Shown: positions 24,791-30,523 of the stretch, in pieces
How the letters are laid out: each line of letters begins with the position of its first letter
Position numbering within the stretch: position 1 is the stretch's first letter
Source: Cerasicoccus arenae
GTDB taxonomy: Bacteria; Verrucomicrobiota; Verrucomicrobiia; Opitutales; Cerasicoccaceae
Direction of reading: 5' to 3'
DNA: 64,000 nt
NCBI RefSeq assembly: GCF_014651635.1
Contig: NZ_BMXG01000009.1
Location: 1 to 64,000 of the forward strand
Program-made: the position numbers and the translations under genes
Notes under the pieces: generated by a model
The model's database searches: none
Seen by the model: the letters and a program-made list of their open reading frames with translations, nothing else
What the model was told of the DNA's origin: nothing

Positions 24791-26050
24791 ATGCCCAAGA
24801 ACATCGGATTTATCTCGACTCGCTTCGCCGGAACAGACGGCGTCTCTCTCGAAAGCGCCAAGTGGGCTGAAGTCCTCTGGGACGACCGCCATATAAGCTA
24901 CTGGTACAGTGGGCTGAGCGACCGCAGTAAAGACATCGCATACGTCGTGCCCGAAGCCCACTTTGGCCACCCGGAAAACGAATGGATCAACGAACGCCTG
25001 TGGAAACGTACCCAGCGCGATCCCCTCGTATCTTCGCGTATCCGCGATTTAGCCGACTACCTGAAGGGTACGCTGCACGATTTTGCCCGTCGGTATAATC
25101 TCGATTTCATTATTCCGCAAAATGTGCTGACAATTCCCATGCACGTTCCCCTTGGAATCGCGGTAACCGAGTTTCTCGCGGAGACAGGAATGCCCGCCAT
25201 CGCGCACCATCACGATTTCTACTGGGAACGCACGCGCTTCTCGGTGGGCTGCATCCAAGACTACCTCGACGCGGCCTTCCCACCCAGCCTATCGAACATC
25301 CGCAATGTCGTCATCAATCGGCCGGCCCAAGAACAGTTTGCGCTGCGTAAGGGCGAGTCTGCGCTGCTGATCCCCAATGTTTTTGATTTTGACCAGCCGG
25401 CTCCTCAGCCCGACGAATACTCAGCCGATATTCGTGAACAAATCGGTCTGGAAAAAGATGACCTGCTCATCCTCCAGCCCACGCGCATCGTCCCACGCAA
25501 AGGCATCGAACACGCGATCACCGCCGTGGGGATGCTCAAGGACCCGCGCTGCAAACTCGTCATCTCGCACGCCGCTGGAGACGAAGGCATGGACTACAAA
25601 CACATGCTCGAAGAGAAAGCGCGCGAGGAAGGTGTCGATGTCCGTTTCTTCGACGAGCGCATTGGGGAAGTCCGCCAGTTTGACGACGAAGGCCGGAAAA
25701 TTTACACGCTGTGGGATCTCTATCCGCACGCGGACTTCGTTACCTACCCGAGCACCTACGAGGGCTTTGGCAACGCCCTGCTGGAGGCCGTGTATTTCCG
25801 CAAGCCAACGCTAGTCAACCGCTACTCAATCTTCATTCAGGACATCGAGCCCAAGGGCTTCCGTTTCGCCTTGATGGACGGTATCGTCACCAACCGCGTC
25901 GTCCGCGAGATCAAGCGCATCCTCGACGACCCTGCCTACCGCGAAGAAATGTGCGAGCACAACTACCGCGTCGCGCGACGGCATTATTCTTATACGGTAC
26001 TGAGACGATCGCTGCGCACATTGATGACGGCGTTGACTGGCCTCAATTAA
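24791..26050 (+). CDS. Glycosyltransferase family 4 protein, paired with a sugar phosphorylase
   Basis: The 419-residue protein starts GFISTRFAGTDGVSLESAKW, the N-terminal nucleotide-binding fold of GT-B enzymes, and has the C-terminal donor site in LQPTRIVPRKGIEHAI and YPSTYEGFGNALLEAVYF (E-x7-E type). Together with the GH13 phosphorylase downstream it may make or recycle a small glucoside such as a compatible solute; this is inference from neighbourhood. The stop codon lies inside a perfect 16-bp palindrome at 26041-26056, immediately before the inserted four-helix-bundle element. Confidence 0.8.
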   Translation: MPKNIGFISTRFAGTDGVSLESAKWAEVLWDDRHISYWYSGLSDRSKDIAYVVPEAHFGHPENEWINERLWKRTQRDPLVSSRIRDLADYLKGTLHDFARRYNLDFIIPQNVLTIPMHVPLGIAVTEFLAETGMPAIAHHHDFYWERTRFSVGCIQDYLDAAFPPSLSNIRNVVINRPAQEQFALRKGESALLIPNVFDFDQPAPQPDEYSADIREQIGLEKDDLLILQPTRIVPRKGIEHAITAVGMLKDPRCKLVISHAAGDEGMDYKHMLEEKAREEGVDVRFFDERIGEVRQFDDEGRKIYTLWDLYPHADFVTYPSTYEGFGNALLEAVYFRKPTLVNRYSIFIQDIEPKGFRFALMDGIVTNRVVREIKRILDDPAYREEMCEHNYRVARRHYSYTVLRRSLRTLMTALTGLN

Positions 26051-26056
26051 TTGAGG
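26041..26056. repeat. Perfect 16-bp palindrome at the glycosyltransferase stop codon
   Basis: CCTCAATTAATTGAGG reads the same on both strands and includes the TAA stop. It abuts the left inverted repeat of the inserted element by four bases and may mark the insertion target or a remnant of an earlier terminator. Confidence 0.8.
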
Positions 26057-26060
26057 CCAG

Positions 26061-26091
26061 AGGTTAAAGTTTTAAGGTTAAAGGCTAAAGT
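26061..26091 (+). repeat. Left 31-bp inverted repeat of the four-helix-bundle element
   Basis: It pairs with 26497-26527 in 29 of 31 positions. Its inner end carries AAAGG five bases before the GTG start at 26090, so the repeat seems to supply the ribosome binding site of the gene. Confidence 0.92.
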
Positions 26092-26503
26092 GGAATTTGA
26101 AATTGAGGAACCGGGAAAATCTTTTGAAAACTTGAACGTATGGAAGCGATCATGTCGCTTAGCTGTTTCAGTGTATCAGGCATTGGGAAATTTCCCTGAT
26201 CGGAGTTTGAAGGATCAGATGACCCGGGCCGTTGTTTCGATCGCCTCAAATATTGCTGAAGGACATGAGAGAAATAGCCCCAAAGACTTTATTCGATTTC
26301 TTCGAATCGCCAAAGGCTCAACCGGCGAACTCAAGACCCAACTTTATATTGCTCAAGCAATCGGTTATCTCGGTAAAGAGGCATGCGATCCTCTCGCACA
26401 GGAGTGCCGCGAAATTTCGGCCATGATCCAAGGCCTCATTCGGAGTATCCCCACTGATAAGCCTAAAGCTAGCGATAAAACCCACATACTTCAGCAACTT
26501 TAA
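26090..26503 (+). CDS. Four-helix-bundle protein (23S rRNA intervening-sequence/S23 family)
   Basis: The product (137 residues from GTG 26090) has the family's sequence order: FENLNVWKRSCRLAVSVYQAL, FPDRSLKDQMTRAVVSIASNIAEGHER, then FIRFLRIAKGSTGELKTQL and a last helix ending MIQGLIRSI. An in-frame TTG at 26051 is the alternative start, but that would translate the inverted repeat; GTG 26090 has a Shine-Dalgarno-like AAAGG. The family is known from rRNA intervening sequences and, as Avd, from diversity-generating retroelements; its biochemical role is thought to be nucleic-acid binding. The stop codon lies within the right inverted repeat. Confidence 0.9.
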   Translation: MEFEIEEPGKSFENLNVWKRSCRLAVSVYQALGNFPDRSLKDQMTRAVVSIASNIAEGHERNSPKDFIRFLRIAKGSTGELKTQLYIAQAIGYLGKEACDPLAQECREISAMIQGLIRSIPTDKPKASDKTHILQQL

Positions 26504-26527
26504 CCTTTAACCTTACAACTTTAACCT
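26497..26527 (-). repeat. Right 31-bp inverted repeat of the four-helix-bundle element
   Basis: It mirrors 26061-26091 with two mismatches and overlaps the 3' end of the four-helix-bundle gene. The phosphorylase ATG follows eight bases later with no clear Shine-Dalgarno sequence. Confidence 0.92.
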
Positions 26528-26534
26528 TCTCCCC

Positions 26535-28283
26535 ATGATCAAATACATCGACCACGCCATTCTTTCCCGCATCAAGCGACGGCTCTTCAATCTTTATGGT
26601 GATCGCGCGGACCAATTGACCGAGCGACTCTACTATCTCGTTGGACGGTATGGAGTGGGTGCACAGCCGCCTGTCGCGCCTGAACAACGCTGGACCGAAA
26701 ACGATGTTTTCCTGATTACATACGCCGACATGGTGCAGTCCGAGGAGGATACGCCGCTGGCCACGCTCAAGCGTTTTTCCACAGAGCACCTCAAGGGTGC
26801 AATCAATACGATCCATATTTTGCCGTTCTATCCTTGGTCCAGTGACGATGGTTTTTCAGTCATTGATTACCGCGCGGTAAAAACCGATTACGGTAGTTGG
26901 AAGGATGTCGAAAACATTGGCGATGAATTCAAGCTGATGTTTGACCTCGTGCTCAACCACTGCTCCAGCCAAAGCGCGTGGTTCCGCGACTTCTTGACCG
27001 GTATTGCACCAGCCAACGAATACTTTGTGGAGATGGACCCCAAGACGGACCTCTCCGCCGTCGTTCGCCCGCGCACCTCGCCTCTGCTCACCAAGACCAT
27101 TACCCGTGACGGCGATGCCTGGGTCTGGACGACCTTTAGTGCTGATCAGGTGGATCTGAATTGGAAAAACCCTGACCTACTCTTCGAGTTTCTAGACATT
27201 CTGCTGCTCTACATTAGCCACGGTGCCACCACACTACGCCTCGACGCCTGTGCCTTTATGTGGAAAGAACTGGGCACGGACTGCCTGCACCTGCCGCAGA
27301 CCCACGAGATGATCAAGCTTATGCGCGACGTTTGCGAGCTCGTTGCGCCACAGGTGCTGATCATCACTGAAACCAATGTGCCGCACGAAGAAAACATCAG
27401 CTACTTCGGCCAAAACGACGAAGCGCATTTGGTCTACAATTTCAGCCTGCCGCCGCTGCTCCTGCACGCGCTGTTGACCAGCAACAGCAAATACCTAACG
27501 AAATGGGCGTCGGAGCTCGCCTTCCCCGAAGCAGGCAAAGGTACGTTCTTTAACTTTACCGCCTCGCATGATGGTGTTGGCGTGCGCCCGCTCCAGGGGC
27601 TCCTGCCCAAGAAGGAGTTCGACAAGCTCATCCATGCAGTCGAAGAGCGCGGTGCCCACGTTTCCAAACGCACACTGCCAGATGGTTCGCAAAGCCCGTA
27701 CGAACTCAACATCACCTACTACTCCGCCCTGGCCAGCCGGCATGATTCCGAGGGGCTCGGCATCGCGCGTTTCCTTTGCTCACAGGCCGTAGCCCTCGCA
27801 TTCAAGGGCGTACCCGCGGTGTATTTCCACAGTTTGGTCGCCACGCCCAACTATCACGAGGGCGTCGAAAAAACCCATCAACCGCGTACGATCAATCGGC
27901 GTAAATACAATGAGGCCGAGCTCATGCACCAGTTGGCCGCCGAAAATGGCCCACAAGGAAAAGTCTTCCGCAAGTATCTACAGATGCTCCGTCGCCGTAC
28001 GAATTACCCAGCCTTTCATCCGGATGGCGACCAAAAGATCATCGATGCCGGGCCCAATCTTTTTGCGCTCGAACGCACATCTCCGAGTAAGAATCAGACC
28101 GTCTTCTGTGTCTTCAATTTCACCGATGAGGAACAGGCGGTGGTCAATCCCAAGGACACCGAAATGCTCAAGAAAGCAAAGAAGTTTTATGACATTCTTT
28201 CCGGAAAAACCCATAGCGACGGCTCGCGTGGAATCAAGCTGGCACCCTACCAAGCCATGTGGCTCGTCCCACGCATTGAATAA
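26535..28283 (+). CDS. GH13 subfamily 18 sugar phosphorylase (sucrose/glucosylglycerate phosphorylase type)
   Basis: The 582-residue protein shows the (beta/alpha)8 GH13 motifs: HILPFYPWSSDDGFSVIDY, DLVLNHCS, the nucleophile in TLRLDACAFMW, the acid/base in LIITETNVPHEEN and FTASHDGVGVRP. The opening FLITYADM and overall length match GH13_18, whose members split sucrose, sucrose-6-phosphate or glucosylglycerate with phosphate. Which acceptor applies cannot be read. The neighbouring glycosyltransferase suggests turnover of a glucoside made in the same cell. The inserted element probably separated the two genes of a former operon. Confidence 0.9.
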   Translation: MIKYIDHAILSRIKRRLFNLYGDRADQLTERLYYLVGRYGVGAQPPVAPEQRWTENDVFLITYADMVQSEEDTPLATLKRFSTEHLKGAINTIHILPFYPWSSDDGFSVIDYRAVKTDYGSWKDVENIGDEFKLMFDLVLNHCSSQSAWFRDFLTGIAPANEYFVEMDPKTDLSAVVRPRTSPLLTKTITRDGDAWVWTTFSADQVDLNWKNPDLLFEFLDILLLYISHGATTLRLDACAFMWKELGTDCLHLPQTHEMIKLMRDVCELVAPQVLIITETNVPHEENISYFGQNDEAHLVYNFSLPPLLLHALLTSNSKYLTKWASELAFPEAGKGTFFNFTASHDGVGVRPLQGLLPKKEFDKLIHAVEERGAHVSKRTLPDGSQSPYELNITYYSALASRHDSEGLGIARFLCSQAVALAFKGVPAVYFHSLVATPNYHEGVEKTHQPRTINRRKYNEAELMHQLAAENGPQGKVFRKYLQMLRRRTNYPAFHPDGDQKIIDAGPNLFALERTSPSKNQTVFCVFNFTDEEQAVVNPKDTEMLKKAKKFYDILSGKTHSDGSRGIKLAPYQAMWLVPRIE

Positions 28284-28327
28284 TTTGACTGGTAATTTGG
28301 TTCCATACTTTCTATCGCAGAGTGAAA

Positions 28328-30523
28328 ATGAGCGAAACTGACTCTGCCACCGCAACGGAACCGACCAAGAAAAAGCTATCGCTGACCACGATGATCATGA
28401 TCGGGGTGGGCCTTGGATTGCTCACCGGCTTATTCTTTGGCGAGGCGTGCGCGGGGCTTGATTTTGTCGGCCAGGCTTTTATCCGCCTACTGCAAATGAC
28501 GATCCTGCCCTACATCGTCGCCTCCCTGATCCTTGGTATTGGTAGTCTGACCATTGAAAAAGCCAAGATGCTTGCGATCTACGTGGGTGCACTGCTGCTA
28601 GTATTTTGGGCGATTGGTTTCGTTGTCACCATGCTCATGCCGATCGCTTTCCCCAGTTGGCAAACGGCTTCTTTCTTCAGTACATCCTTGCTAGCACCCC
28701 CGCACCAAGTCGACTTCTTAGAGCTCTATATTCCAGCCAACCCATTTAACTCACTCGCACAAAACGTCATCCCCGCTGTCGTGCTGTTCAGCCTGGCCCT
28801 CGGCATTGCGCTGATCAAAGTGAAGGAAAAAAAGACCCTGCTCGACAACCTGCGCACCGTGGCCGAAGCCCTGACCACAGTCGCCGGTATGATTGTTAAG
28901 CTGACCCCGATCGGCGTATTCGCCATCACCGCTTCAGCCGCTGGCACACTAACTCTGGAGGAGTTGAGCAAGCTCCAAGTCTACTTCGTCAGCTACATGA
29001 GTATCGCGTTGTTCCTCTCGATCTGGCTGCTACCGATGTTAACTGCGGCGATCACGCCATTCTCCTACAGAGAGATCATGCGTGTCTCACGCGATGCGCT
29101 CCTTACTGGCTTCACAACAGGCAACCTGTTTATTATTCTGCCCGTGCTTACGCAGAACTGCCGCGAACTGTTTGAACTGAAAAAAATCAAAACAGAAAAT
29201 ACCGATTCCTACATCGACGTCGTCATCCCAGTGACCTTCAATTTTCCCAACTTGGGCAAAGTCACGATGCTTCTCTTCATCTTGTTCGCTCTCTGGTTTA
29301 GTGGCGGAGATTTAAGCATCACGCAATATCCTGTGTTTATATTCTCCGGCTTGTTCAGCCTCTTTGGCAGCTTGAATGTTGCCGTACCGTTCCTGCTCAA
29401 CTTGCTCAATGTCCCGGCGGACCTCTATCAGCTCTACGTCATCACGGGTATCATCAACGGACGCTTTGCCACGCTGCTTGCAGCGATGAATTTGCTCACG
29501 TTCACACTGATCGCGGTGTGCGCGATGACCCGCAATCTGCGGTTCAACCCCATCGCGCTCGGGCGTTTTGGGGCAACCACCGCTGGACTACTGGTGGCAA
29601 TTATTGTCCTCAACCGAACTTATTTCGAATATGCCGTTAAAAACGAGTATGACATGGACAAGCAACTCGCCTCCATGCACACGCTGCTGACACCCAGCAA
29701 CGCCAAGGTTTACAAGGATAACCCGCCCACGCCACCGCCGCTTACCTCACGCCAATCAAGACTCGATCGCATCAAGGAGGAAAAACTCCTCCGCGTAGGC
29801 TACTTGCCAGAGCACCTGCCCTTCACCTTTTTTAATGAAGAAGACCAGCTTGTCGGCTTCGACGTCGACGTCGCCAATCTCTTAGCTGAGCAACTGAATG
29901 TTGCCTTGGAATTCATCCCCGTTAAGGAGAGTACCATGGCCGAGCAAATCCAGCGTGGTGAGTGCGACATCGTTATGTCTGGCATTGCGATGAACGTTGC
30001 AAGGCTCGAGCAAATGTCCTTCTCCCAGCCCTACGAGCACCTCACCTTTGCATTCATTACTACCGACAAGAAAAAAGACATTTTCTCGGATCGCGTACGC
30101 TTGACCAATACCAAAGGCCTGACCATCGCCGTCGTCAACGATAGCTACTATGCAAAGAGCCTGAAAATTTATCTGCCGCTAGCCAACATCAAGAACATCA
30201 ATACGATGGAGGAATACTTCAAGGCACCTACGGGCACCTACGATGCCGTCCTCACCAGTGCAGAAGAAGGCTCAGCTTGGACACTACTTTATCCAAGCTT
30301 CGCCGTGACCATTCCCAAGCCGGGCACGGTGTCACTCCCCATTGCTTACCCGGTTCCTTACGACGACGTTGAGTTTGAAGATTTCATTTCCAAGTGGATT
30401 GCGGTTAATCATGGCGGCCTGCGATACGAAGAAATCTACAACCACTGGATCCTTGGTCGCGGCGCCAGCGTCACCAAGCCTCGCTGGTGCATCATGCGCA
30501 ATGTACTCGGTTGGGGAGACTAA
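28328..30523 (+). CDS. Dicarboxylate/amino-acid:cation symporter fused to a periplasmic solute-binding domain
   Basis: The start is the ATG at 28328 (in-frame GTG six bases earlier). Residues about 20-440 are a DAACS/GltP-type symporter with several membrane helices. Near residue 486 a class 3 solute-binding domain begins: LLRVGYLPEHLPFTFF, GFDVDVANLLAEQLNV, QRGECDIVMSGIAM and IAVVNDSYYAKS. The total is 731 residues. Secondary transporters of this family normally have no binding domain, so a tethered domain probably captures substrate and raises affinity, or senses it. The frame is continuous through the junction, so this is a real fusion in the assembly. Confidence 0.88.
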   Translation: MSETDSATATEPTKKKLSLTTMIMIGVGLGLLTGLFFGEACAGLDFVGQAFIRLLQMTILPYIVASLILGIGSLTIEKAKMLAIYVGALLLVFWAIGFVVTMLMPIAFPSWQTASFFSTSLLAPPHQVDFLELYIPANPFNSLAQNVIPAVVLFSLALGIALIKVKEKKTLLDNLRTVAEALTTVAGMIVKLTPIGVFAITASAAGTLTLEELSKLQVYFVSYMSIALFLSIWLLPMLTAAITPFSYREIMRVSRDALLTGFTTGNLFIILPVLTQNCRELFELKKIKTENTDSYIDVVIPVTFNFPNLGKVTMLLFILFALWFSGGDLSITQYPVFIFSGLFSLFGSLNVAVPFLLNLLNVPADLYQLYVITGIINGRFATLLAAMNLLTFTLIAVCAMTRNLRFNPIALGRFGATTAGLLVAIIVLNRTYFEYAVKNEYDMDKQLASMHTLLTPSNAKVYKDNPPTPPPLTSRQSRLDRIKEEKLLRVGYLPEHLPFTFFNEEDQLVGFDVDVANLLAEQLNVALEFIPVKESTMAEQIQRGECDIVMSGIAMNVARLEQMSFSQPYEHLTFAFITTDKKKDIFSDRVRLTNTKGLTIAVVNDSYYAKSLKIYLPLANIKNINTMEEYFKAPTGTYDAVLTSAEEGSAWTLLYPSFAVTIPKPGTVSLPIAYPVPYDDVEFEDFISKWIAVNHGGLRYEEIYNHWILGRGASVTKPRWCIMRNVLGWGD

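Follow-up and report, generated by a model that had tools for sequence, protein, structure and literature searches.

We describe an element in a 64,000-nt stretch of the Cerasicoccus arenae genome (contig NZ_BMXG01000009.1, positions 1 to 64,000; hereafter the window), in which a gene of the intervening-sequence protein (IVP, or S23) family is enclosed by a pair of arrays of a 7-nt unit in inverted orientation. The element lies within a sugar operon, at the junction between a glycosyltransferase (GT) gene and a glycoside hydrolase family 13 (GH13) gene (Table 1), and GT homologues adjoin a GH13 gene in most of the relatives searched. IVP genes between matching inverted arrays recur across bacteria, and gene-less arrays of the unit that flanks the window IVP are dispersed in the same genome.

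The two 31-nt arms are complementary at 29 of 31 positions, with 405 nt between them. When inverted repeats were scored over the whole window (match +1, mismatch -2, arms no more than 700 nt apart), this pair scored 25 and was the only one to score at least 18, and the top score in 30 first-order Markov simulations was 15. Both arms are degenerate arrays of GGTTAAA, inverted with respect to each other; Tandem Repeats Finder reads arm 2 as CTTTAAC x 4.4 with a period of 7 at 26498-26528. The IVP open frame spans 26051-26503 from a TTG at 26051, but the likely start is the GTG at the inner end of arm 1, which is kept in three congeners and overlaps the arm that also holds a putative ribosome binding site (AAAGG, 26080-26084). 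Between the end of arm 2 and the GH13 start codon there are 7 nt. PF05635 was the only family matched in the profile search of the gene; the protein passes the curated cut-offs of PF05635 (120.2 bits against 33.8) and TIGR02436 (121 against 24), and also matches NF008912 and PDB 2gsc (E 1e-16). In the predicted RNA fold (minimum free energy (MFE) -155 kcal/mol, z -5.0), the palindrome upstream of arm 1 forms a hairpin and the arms form a stem, the latter in MFE and centroid folds alike. An earlier reading of the window, made from its letters without database searches (the sequence-only reading), had proposed the repeats, the gene family, the ribosome binding site and stop codon within the repeats, and the two neighbouring genes, all of which were recovered on recomputation, the neighbours at the level of GT and GH13 family; its naming of the GH13 enzyme as a phosphorylase is putative. 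It had also noted an adjoining perfect palindrome, which is present but measures 24 bp instead of 16 and includes the upstream stop codon.

Table 1. Positions of the element and its host genes in the window
Feature	Position	Strand	Remarks
Upstream host gene, glycosyltransferase (GT group 1)	24791..26050	+	PF00534, E 1e-15; stop codon 26048-26050 within hairpin
Perfect 24-bp palindrome, hairpin CTGGCCTCAATT/AATTGAGGCCAG	26037..26060		Repeat search; directly 5' of arm 1
Arm 1	26061..26091	+	Array GGTTAAA-GTTTTAA-GGTTAAA-GGCTAAA
IVP / four-helix-bundle gene	26090..26503	+	137 aa from GTG 26090; PF05635, E 5.7e-35
Arm 2	26497..26527	+	Inverted array; includes IVP stop codon TAA 26501-26503
Downstream host gene, GH13 family enzyme	26535..28283	+	PF00128, E 5e-25

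Arm matching at IVP loci in other genomes

Of 54 relatives, 26 carry PF05635 genes, with up to 11 per genome; most of the genomes are drafts, the loci are related, and genes were placed by a codon model. A total of 106 such genes were oriented, and each upstream flank was compared with every downstream flank in reverse complement. Own-arm pairs at 97 loci of the order gave a summed score of 3656, against 1757 +/- 46 for permuted pairs, an excess of about 40 standard deviations. A scan across all bacteria supplied 79 loci, ranging from Bacteroidota and Firmicutes to Patescibacteria, and these gave a similar result (3392 against 1467 +/- 46). The flanks are usually inverted arrays of a 6-8-nt unit that varies among loci (GGCAGAA, GGCACAAA, GATGAAT, GTTTGAGA and CGTTATT among them), and the period is 7 nt in 41 of 60. 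Arm 1 is richer in G than in C at 102 of 115 loci, with 13 the other way. The sequence-only reading had described the ends of the window element as inverted repeats and had missed their array structure: they are no fixed terminal repeat, being 7-nt arrays whose unit varies by locus, and many copies of the unit in the same genome carry no gene.

Six weak PF05635 relatives below the cut-off have arm scores of 16-19, which is the level of chance. Five of the six form one clade nested among the arm-bearing IVPs, and this clade is an internal negative control for arm matching; possibly it is a domesticated lineage. These arm-less proteins sit in longer frames (L041 at G000:C18:51484, G000 being the window genome, with relatives in G001, G002, G003, G004 and G006). 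Two other candidate features were set aside. Mirrored order of unit variants between the arms reached p <= 0.05 at 75 of 108 loci, and is not used as proof because the arms had been picked as best local alignments, which biases the test. A palindrome fixed at the upstream edge of every element was rejected as well, with a mean little different from the control; it belongs to a subset, falling within the strongest 5% of a locus's own upstream windows at 10 of 61 loci (about 3 expected). Hairpins that contain or abut the upstream stop codon directly 5' of arm 1 were seen in the window, in G001-G003, at G022:C25 and G036:C44, and at suf and atp loci. In these hairpins the right half repeats, in mirror form, the final codons of the gene upstream and tracks the synonymous (third-codon-position) changes of those codons in congeners.

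Xanthomonadaceae offered a test case. A published survey of Xanthomonas campestris counted 186 arrays of the GGGAATC type, with 70 cases of convergent (inverted) pairs, and offered no cause (PMC4692102). Among 30 fetched loci, all relatives of the X. campestris IVP XCC0516 (PDB 2gsc), heptamer arrays in inverted orientation were present, together with an accC reading frame, at 30 of 30, and wherever the junction was read directly the order was accB-array-IVP-array-accC. Arms of the closest matches (87 and 86% identity) are built of GGGAATC, and those at other loci of GGGATTC, GTGAATC or GTGATTC. Genome-wide, pairs of the unit (GKGAWTC x2) number 15-459 per genome with a control of 0, and the majority type at the variable site (A or T) agrees with the type in the IVP arms for 9 of 9 genomes. 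We take this match as support and not as proof, because the genomes are related, the counts are of overlapping unit pairs and several unit types coexist.

Dispersed copies and operon junctions

In the window genome, with its single strong IVP, AAAGGTTAAAG occurs 46 times, against 7 for the reversed-pattern control and 0-10 per genome in nine relatives; these and the other repeat counts come from pattern searches and represent overlapping unit pairs, not arrays. About 12 of the copies are gene-less inverted pairs, or mini-elements, with loops of 21-200 nt (fetched as L032, L033, L036, L037, L344, L349, L354, L355, L362, L363, L397 and L398), and there are many single arrays besides. Only some mini-elements, L036, L037 and L398 among them, end beside an ATG in the stretches of 500-700 nt to which a codon model was applied. 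In G001, whose IVP between sdhA and sdhB has GGCAGAA arms, there are 17 matches to AAGGCAGAAGG (control 3), and five of the 17 belong to a family of homologous mini-elements some 150 nt long, the inner arm edge of which, GGGAAnTGATGGA, is similar to the edge of the IVP element.

A codon-usage call places 65 arm-bearing loci in sense orientation with the genes on either side and 7 in antisense orientation to both, with 12 mixed cases. The host junctions are classic operon pairs (sdhA-sdhB, atpA-atpG, cysD-cysN, pheS-pheT and oppD-oppF), along with the hisF junction and a suf junction, all named by sequence recognition and not by profile searches; accB-accC, the site in Xanthomonadaceae, is likewise a conserved operon pair. 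Compared across ten genomes of the family, junctions occur in four states: with the IVP, with inverted arrays and no IVP, with one array, or clean. The second state was found at cysD-cysN in G006 and at GT-GH13 in G009 and, weakly, G005. The GT-GH13 junction is clean in G004 and in most genomes outside the family. At pheS-pheT in G007, G008 and G009, inverted 9-mer arrays of CACAGAGNN were seen with no IVP, and IVP-less 9-mer arrays (for example CACAGAGNN or CGCAAAGNN) at pheS-pheT (L216, L218 and L219) and at GT-GH13 (L046 and L048) vary by species within a junction. At sdhA-sdhB (L182, L183 and L187), a lone CTTTAAT-like array remains right before the sdhB start codon in the window genome, G002 and G004, at the place that a full IVP element occupies in the congeners G001 and G003.

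The GT-GH13 insertion is common to four congeners, whose IVPs form one clade (Shimodaira-Hasegawa-like approximate likelihood ratio test, SH-aLRT, 95). The IVP at the same junction in G007 falls on a distant branch of the IVP tree, and this junction was filled independently there; the atpA-atpG and cysD-cysN junctions also need more than one origin. G016 holds two copies that are 92.7% identical from arm to arm (453 nt) in unrelated flanks, plus one deleted copy. No obvious target-site duplication was seen by eye in the G016 copies and junctions. The mobility that the sequence-only reading had suspected is thus supported by clean junctions in relatives, by independent insertions at one junction and by recent dispersed copies in one genome. 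Identical gene and repeats in all relatives with no other copies, the outcome which it had named as telling against itself, is not what these genomes contain.

IVP proteins are under purifying selection, with a ratio of nonsynonymous to synonymous divergence (dN/dS) of 0.016-0.19; for the window gene, compared between congeners, the ratio is 0.016-0.11 where dS is measurable. Between G001 and G002 at GT-GH13, dN is 0.017 and dS 1.08, and over the same interval arm 1 is unchanged at 30 of 30 bases and arm 2 at 29 of 30. Between the window and G001, 10 of 31 positions differ per arm, and 8 pairs are altered on both sides with pairing kept (manual count).

What the IVP may do

We consider it an even call that the window element is a full-length member of a widespread dispersed class, in which an IVP lies between inverted short-unit arrays and works in trans. 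The IVP, likely a pentamer of four-helix bundles with the fold of Avd (the accessory protein of diversity-generating retroelements), would recognise arrays of the unit found in its genome, whether these take the form of a folded strand or of paired arms, and would promote their copying and dispersal in trans, as the single-copy RAYT does for REPINs. The element itself would ride in host mRNA, where its arms could pair into a long stem enclosing the gene. Binding, action in trans and the copying route are what we infer. One IVP beside many cognate arrays, units that match, insertions that arose independently and a conserved protein are most simply accounted for by an IVP that acts in trans. Nucleic-acid binding is plausible because the fold of IVP is homologous to that of Avd (PMC10053308). 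The three neighbouring genes inspected, which encode a GT, a GH13 enzyme and an SDF-type transporter, showed neither a reverse transcriptase nor a template/variable repeat.

A close parallel is the REPIN/RAYT system, in which a low-copy, vertically kept gene is flanked by a species-specific repeat that is dispersed as inverted pairs (PMC3116915). Likewise, the repeat that flanks the IVP recurs as inverted pairs elsewhere in its genome (in the window genome and in Xanthomonadaceae), and the IVP is vertically inherited at a fixed place in four congeners. RAYT, however, is an HUH (Y1) transposase, whereas IVP is a four-helix bundle; the repeats in the REPIN/RAYT system are palindromes of 20-40 nt and those around IVPs consist of 7-nt units in arrays; and several IVPs per genome are common. 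Classical insertion sequences and miniature inverted-repeat transposable elements (MITEs) differ in that here no fixed terminal inverted repeats are common to all copies and the units vary by locus; the recent G016 copies and the G001 mini-elements are exceptions. Degenerate 7-nt intergenic arrays have been published as GGGAATC in Xanthomonas, where a genome has about 70 convergent pairs, and as GGGGA(C/T)T in Nostoc (PMC4692102), and as TAACTGA in Beggiatoaceae (PMC4679880). A text search of these papers turned up neither IVP nor S23, whereas we find an IVP gene inside the Xanthomonas arrays, beside accC.

Several observations weigh against a trans-acting IVP. The mini-elements of the window genome had no loop homology that we could find, unlike those of G001 or a classical MITE burst, and G003 has a GGCAGAA-armed IVP yet only 5 unit matches. 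Many genomes carry several IVPs with differing units, and the motif common to the units, AG(T/A)(G/T)N(T/C)N, is weak (2.05 bits against a null maximum of 1.87), so that recognition by one protein family is not obvious. The T-type count over 30 Xanthomonadaceae genomes, which are related and not independent, separates arm types modestly (median 71 in T-arm genomes against 37, Mann-Whitney p 0.03). Finally, we know of no catalytic residues in IVPs, and for this reason the model lacks a copying enzyme.

RNA processing and regulation by leader binding rank behind a role in trans. In the first of these, the element would be an intervening sequence (IVS) of mRNA: its arms would pair in the operon transcript and RNase III would cut the stem, freeing the IVP message and leaving the host mRNA in two parts that can each be translated, a selfish arrangement that would be harmless between cistrons. 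The 23S rRNA IVS of Coxiella burnetii has terminal inverted repeats and tandem GACAGAT heptamers before the S23p start codon, in a number that varies by strain, and its heptamer-bearing arms are cut by RNase III in vitro (PMC4990558). The window element is alike in having a PF05635-family gene between terminal inverted repeats that could form a long stem around the open reading frame (ORF), and it differs in lying between operon genes and not inside 23S rRNA, in its GGTTAAA unit and in the many gene-less arrays of that unit in its genome. The kinship with rRNA IVSs and the life within mRNA that the sequence-only reading had suggested are both supported, the latter by the sense orientation within operons and by the strong predicted stem; the pairs altered on both sides in the congener arms also favour processing. 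Selection on the mRNA stem through G-U wobble was looked for and found no support, as arm mismatches comprise 132 sense-strand G-U, 168 antisense and 344 transversions. These counts give no base-level sign of selection on the sense-mRNA stem and weaken the case for RNase III, and the abundance of gene-less arrays of the same unit is left unexplained. We judge this explanation unlikely, and the interpretation offered by the sequence-only reading is partly supported overall.

TRAP, which binds GAG/UAG repeats, is the model for a further alternative, in which the IVP is a post-transcriptional regulator whose pentamer would bind 7-nt-unit RNA with AG in register, repress its own start in arm 1 and control genes with arrays in their leaders. 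The G-richness of arm 1, the purines at fixed unit positions, the ribosome binding site and start within arm 1 of the window, and the short distance from arm 2 to the next start codon are all consistent with such a role, as are junctions that retain only the arm before a start codon (sdhB in G000, G002 and G004) and the Xanthomonas arrays that hold the same places in two species (PMC4692102). Regulation does not need inverted pairs, however, and explains neither the recent dispersal of whole elements nor the independent insertions at one junction, and we regard it as distinctly unlikely. That the repeats are passive microsatellites, spread by slippage and by template switching that keeps the arms alike, with the IVP as a passenger, would suit arm mismatches that resemble unsorted mutation, units that vary freely among loci and short palindromes at some element edges, but is improbable given the strong purifying selection on IVP proteins, the inverted arrays flanking IVPs in many phyla and the identity of the genome-wide enriched unit with the unit beside the IVP.

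Extended beyond the window, the proposal of a trans-acting IVP becomes more tentative. Somewhat short of an even chance, in our estimate, is that the IVP/S23 family across phyla is the trans-acting partner of genome-wide short-unit inverted arrays, forming a system that spreads or reads repeats by means of a four-helix bundle in place of a transposase, which would explain the Xanthomonas heptamers and make rRNA IVSs its members in rRNA; if so, the heptamers of cyanobacteria and others might be explained too. PF05635 is a common orphan family, known chiefly from an unusual ORF within certain rRNA genes and from the fold of Avd, and dispersed heptamers have been a separate puzzle, treated in several publications with no cause given. 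With the unit of the IVP arms found to match the unit dispersed in its genome, two observations that lacked an explanation become a single question that can be tested. A search of the open literature found no link between IVP and dispersed heptamers, although a description elsewhere is possible. A working system of this kind would be a new type of repeat-maintaining or repeat-reading protein that recognises period more than sequence.

Other features of the genome and window

A second dispersed repeat occurs in the window genome as an inverted element with AAGGTGGAGCCCGGTGTCCCGACCGGGC arms, found at L348 and L362 (G000:C1 and C13), which are similar over 102 nt. Downstream of the GH13 gene, a 733-aa ORF (28322-30523) joins a PF00375 sodium:dicarboxylate symporter to a PF00497 family 3 extracellular solute-binding domain, an uncommon fusion.

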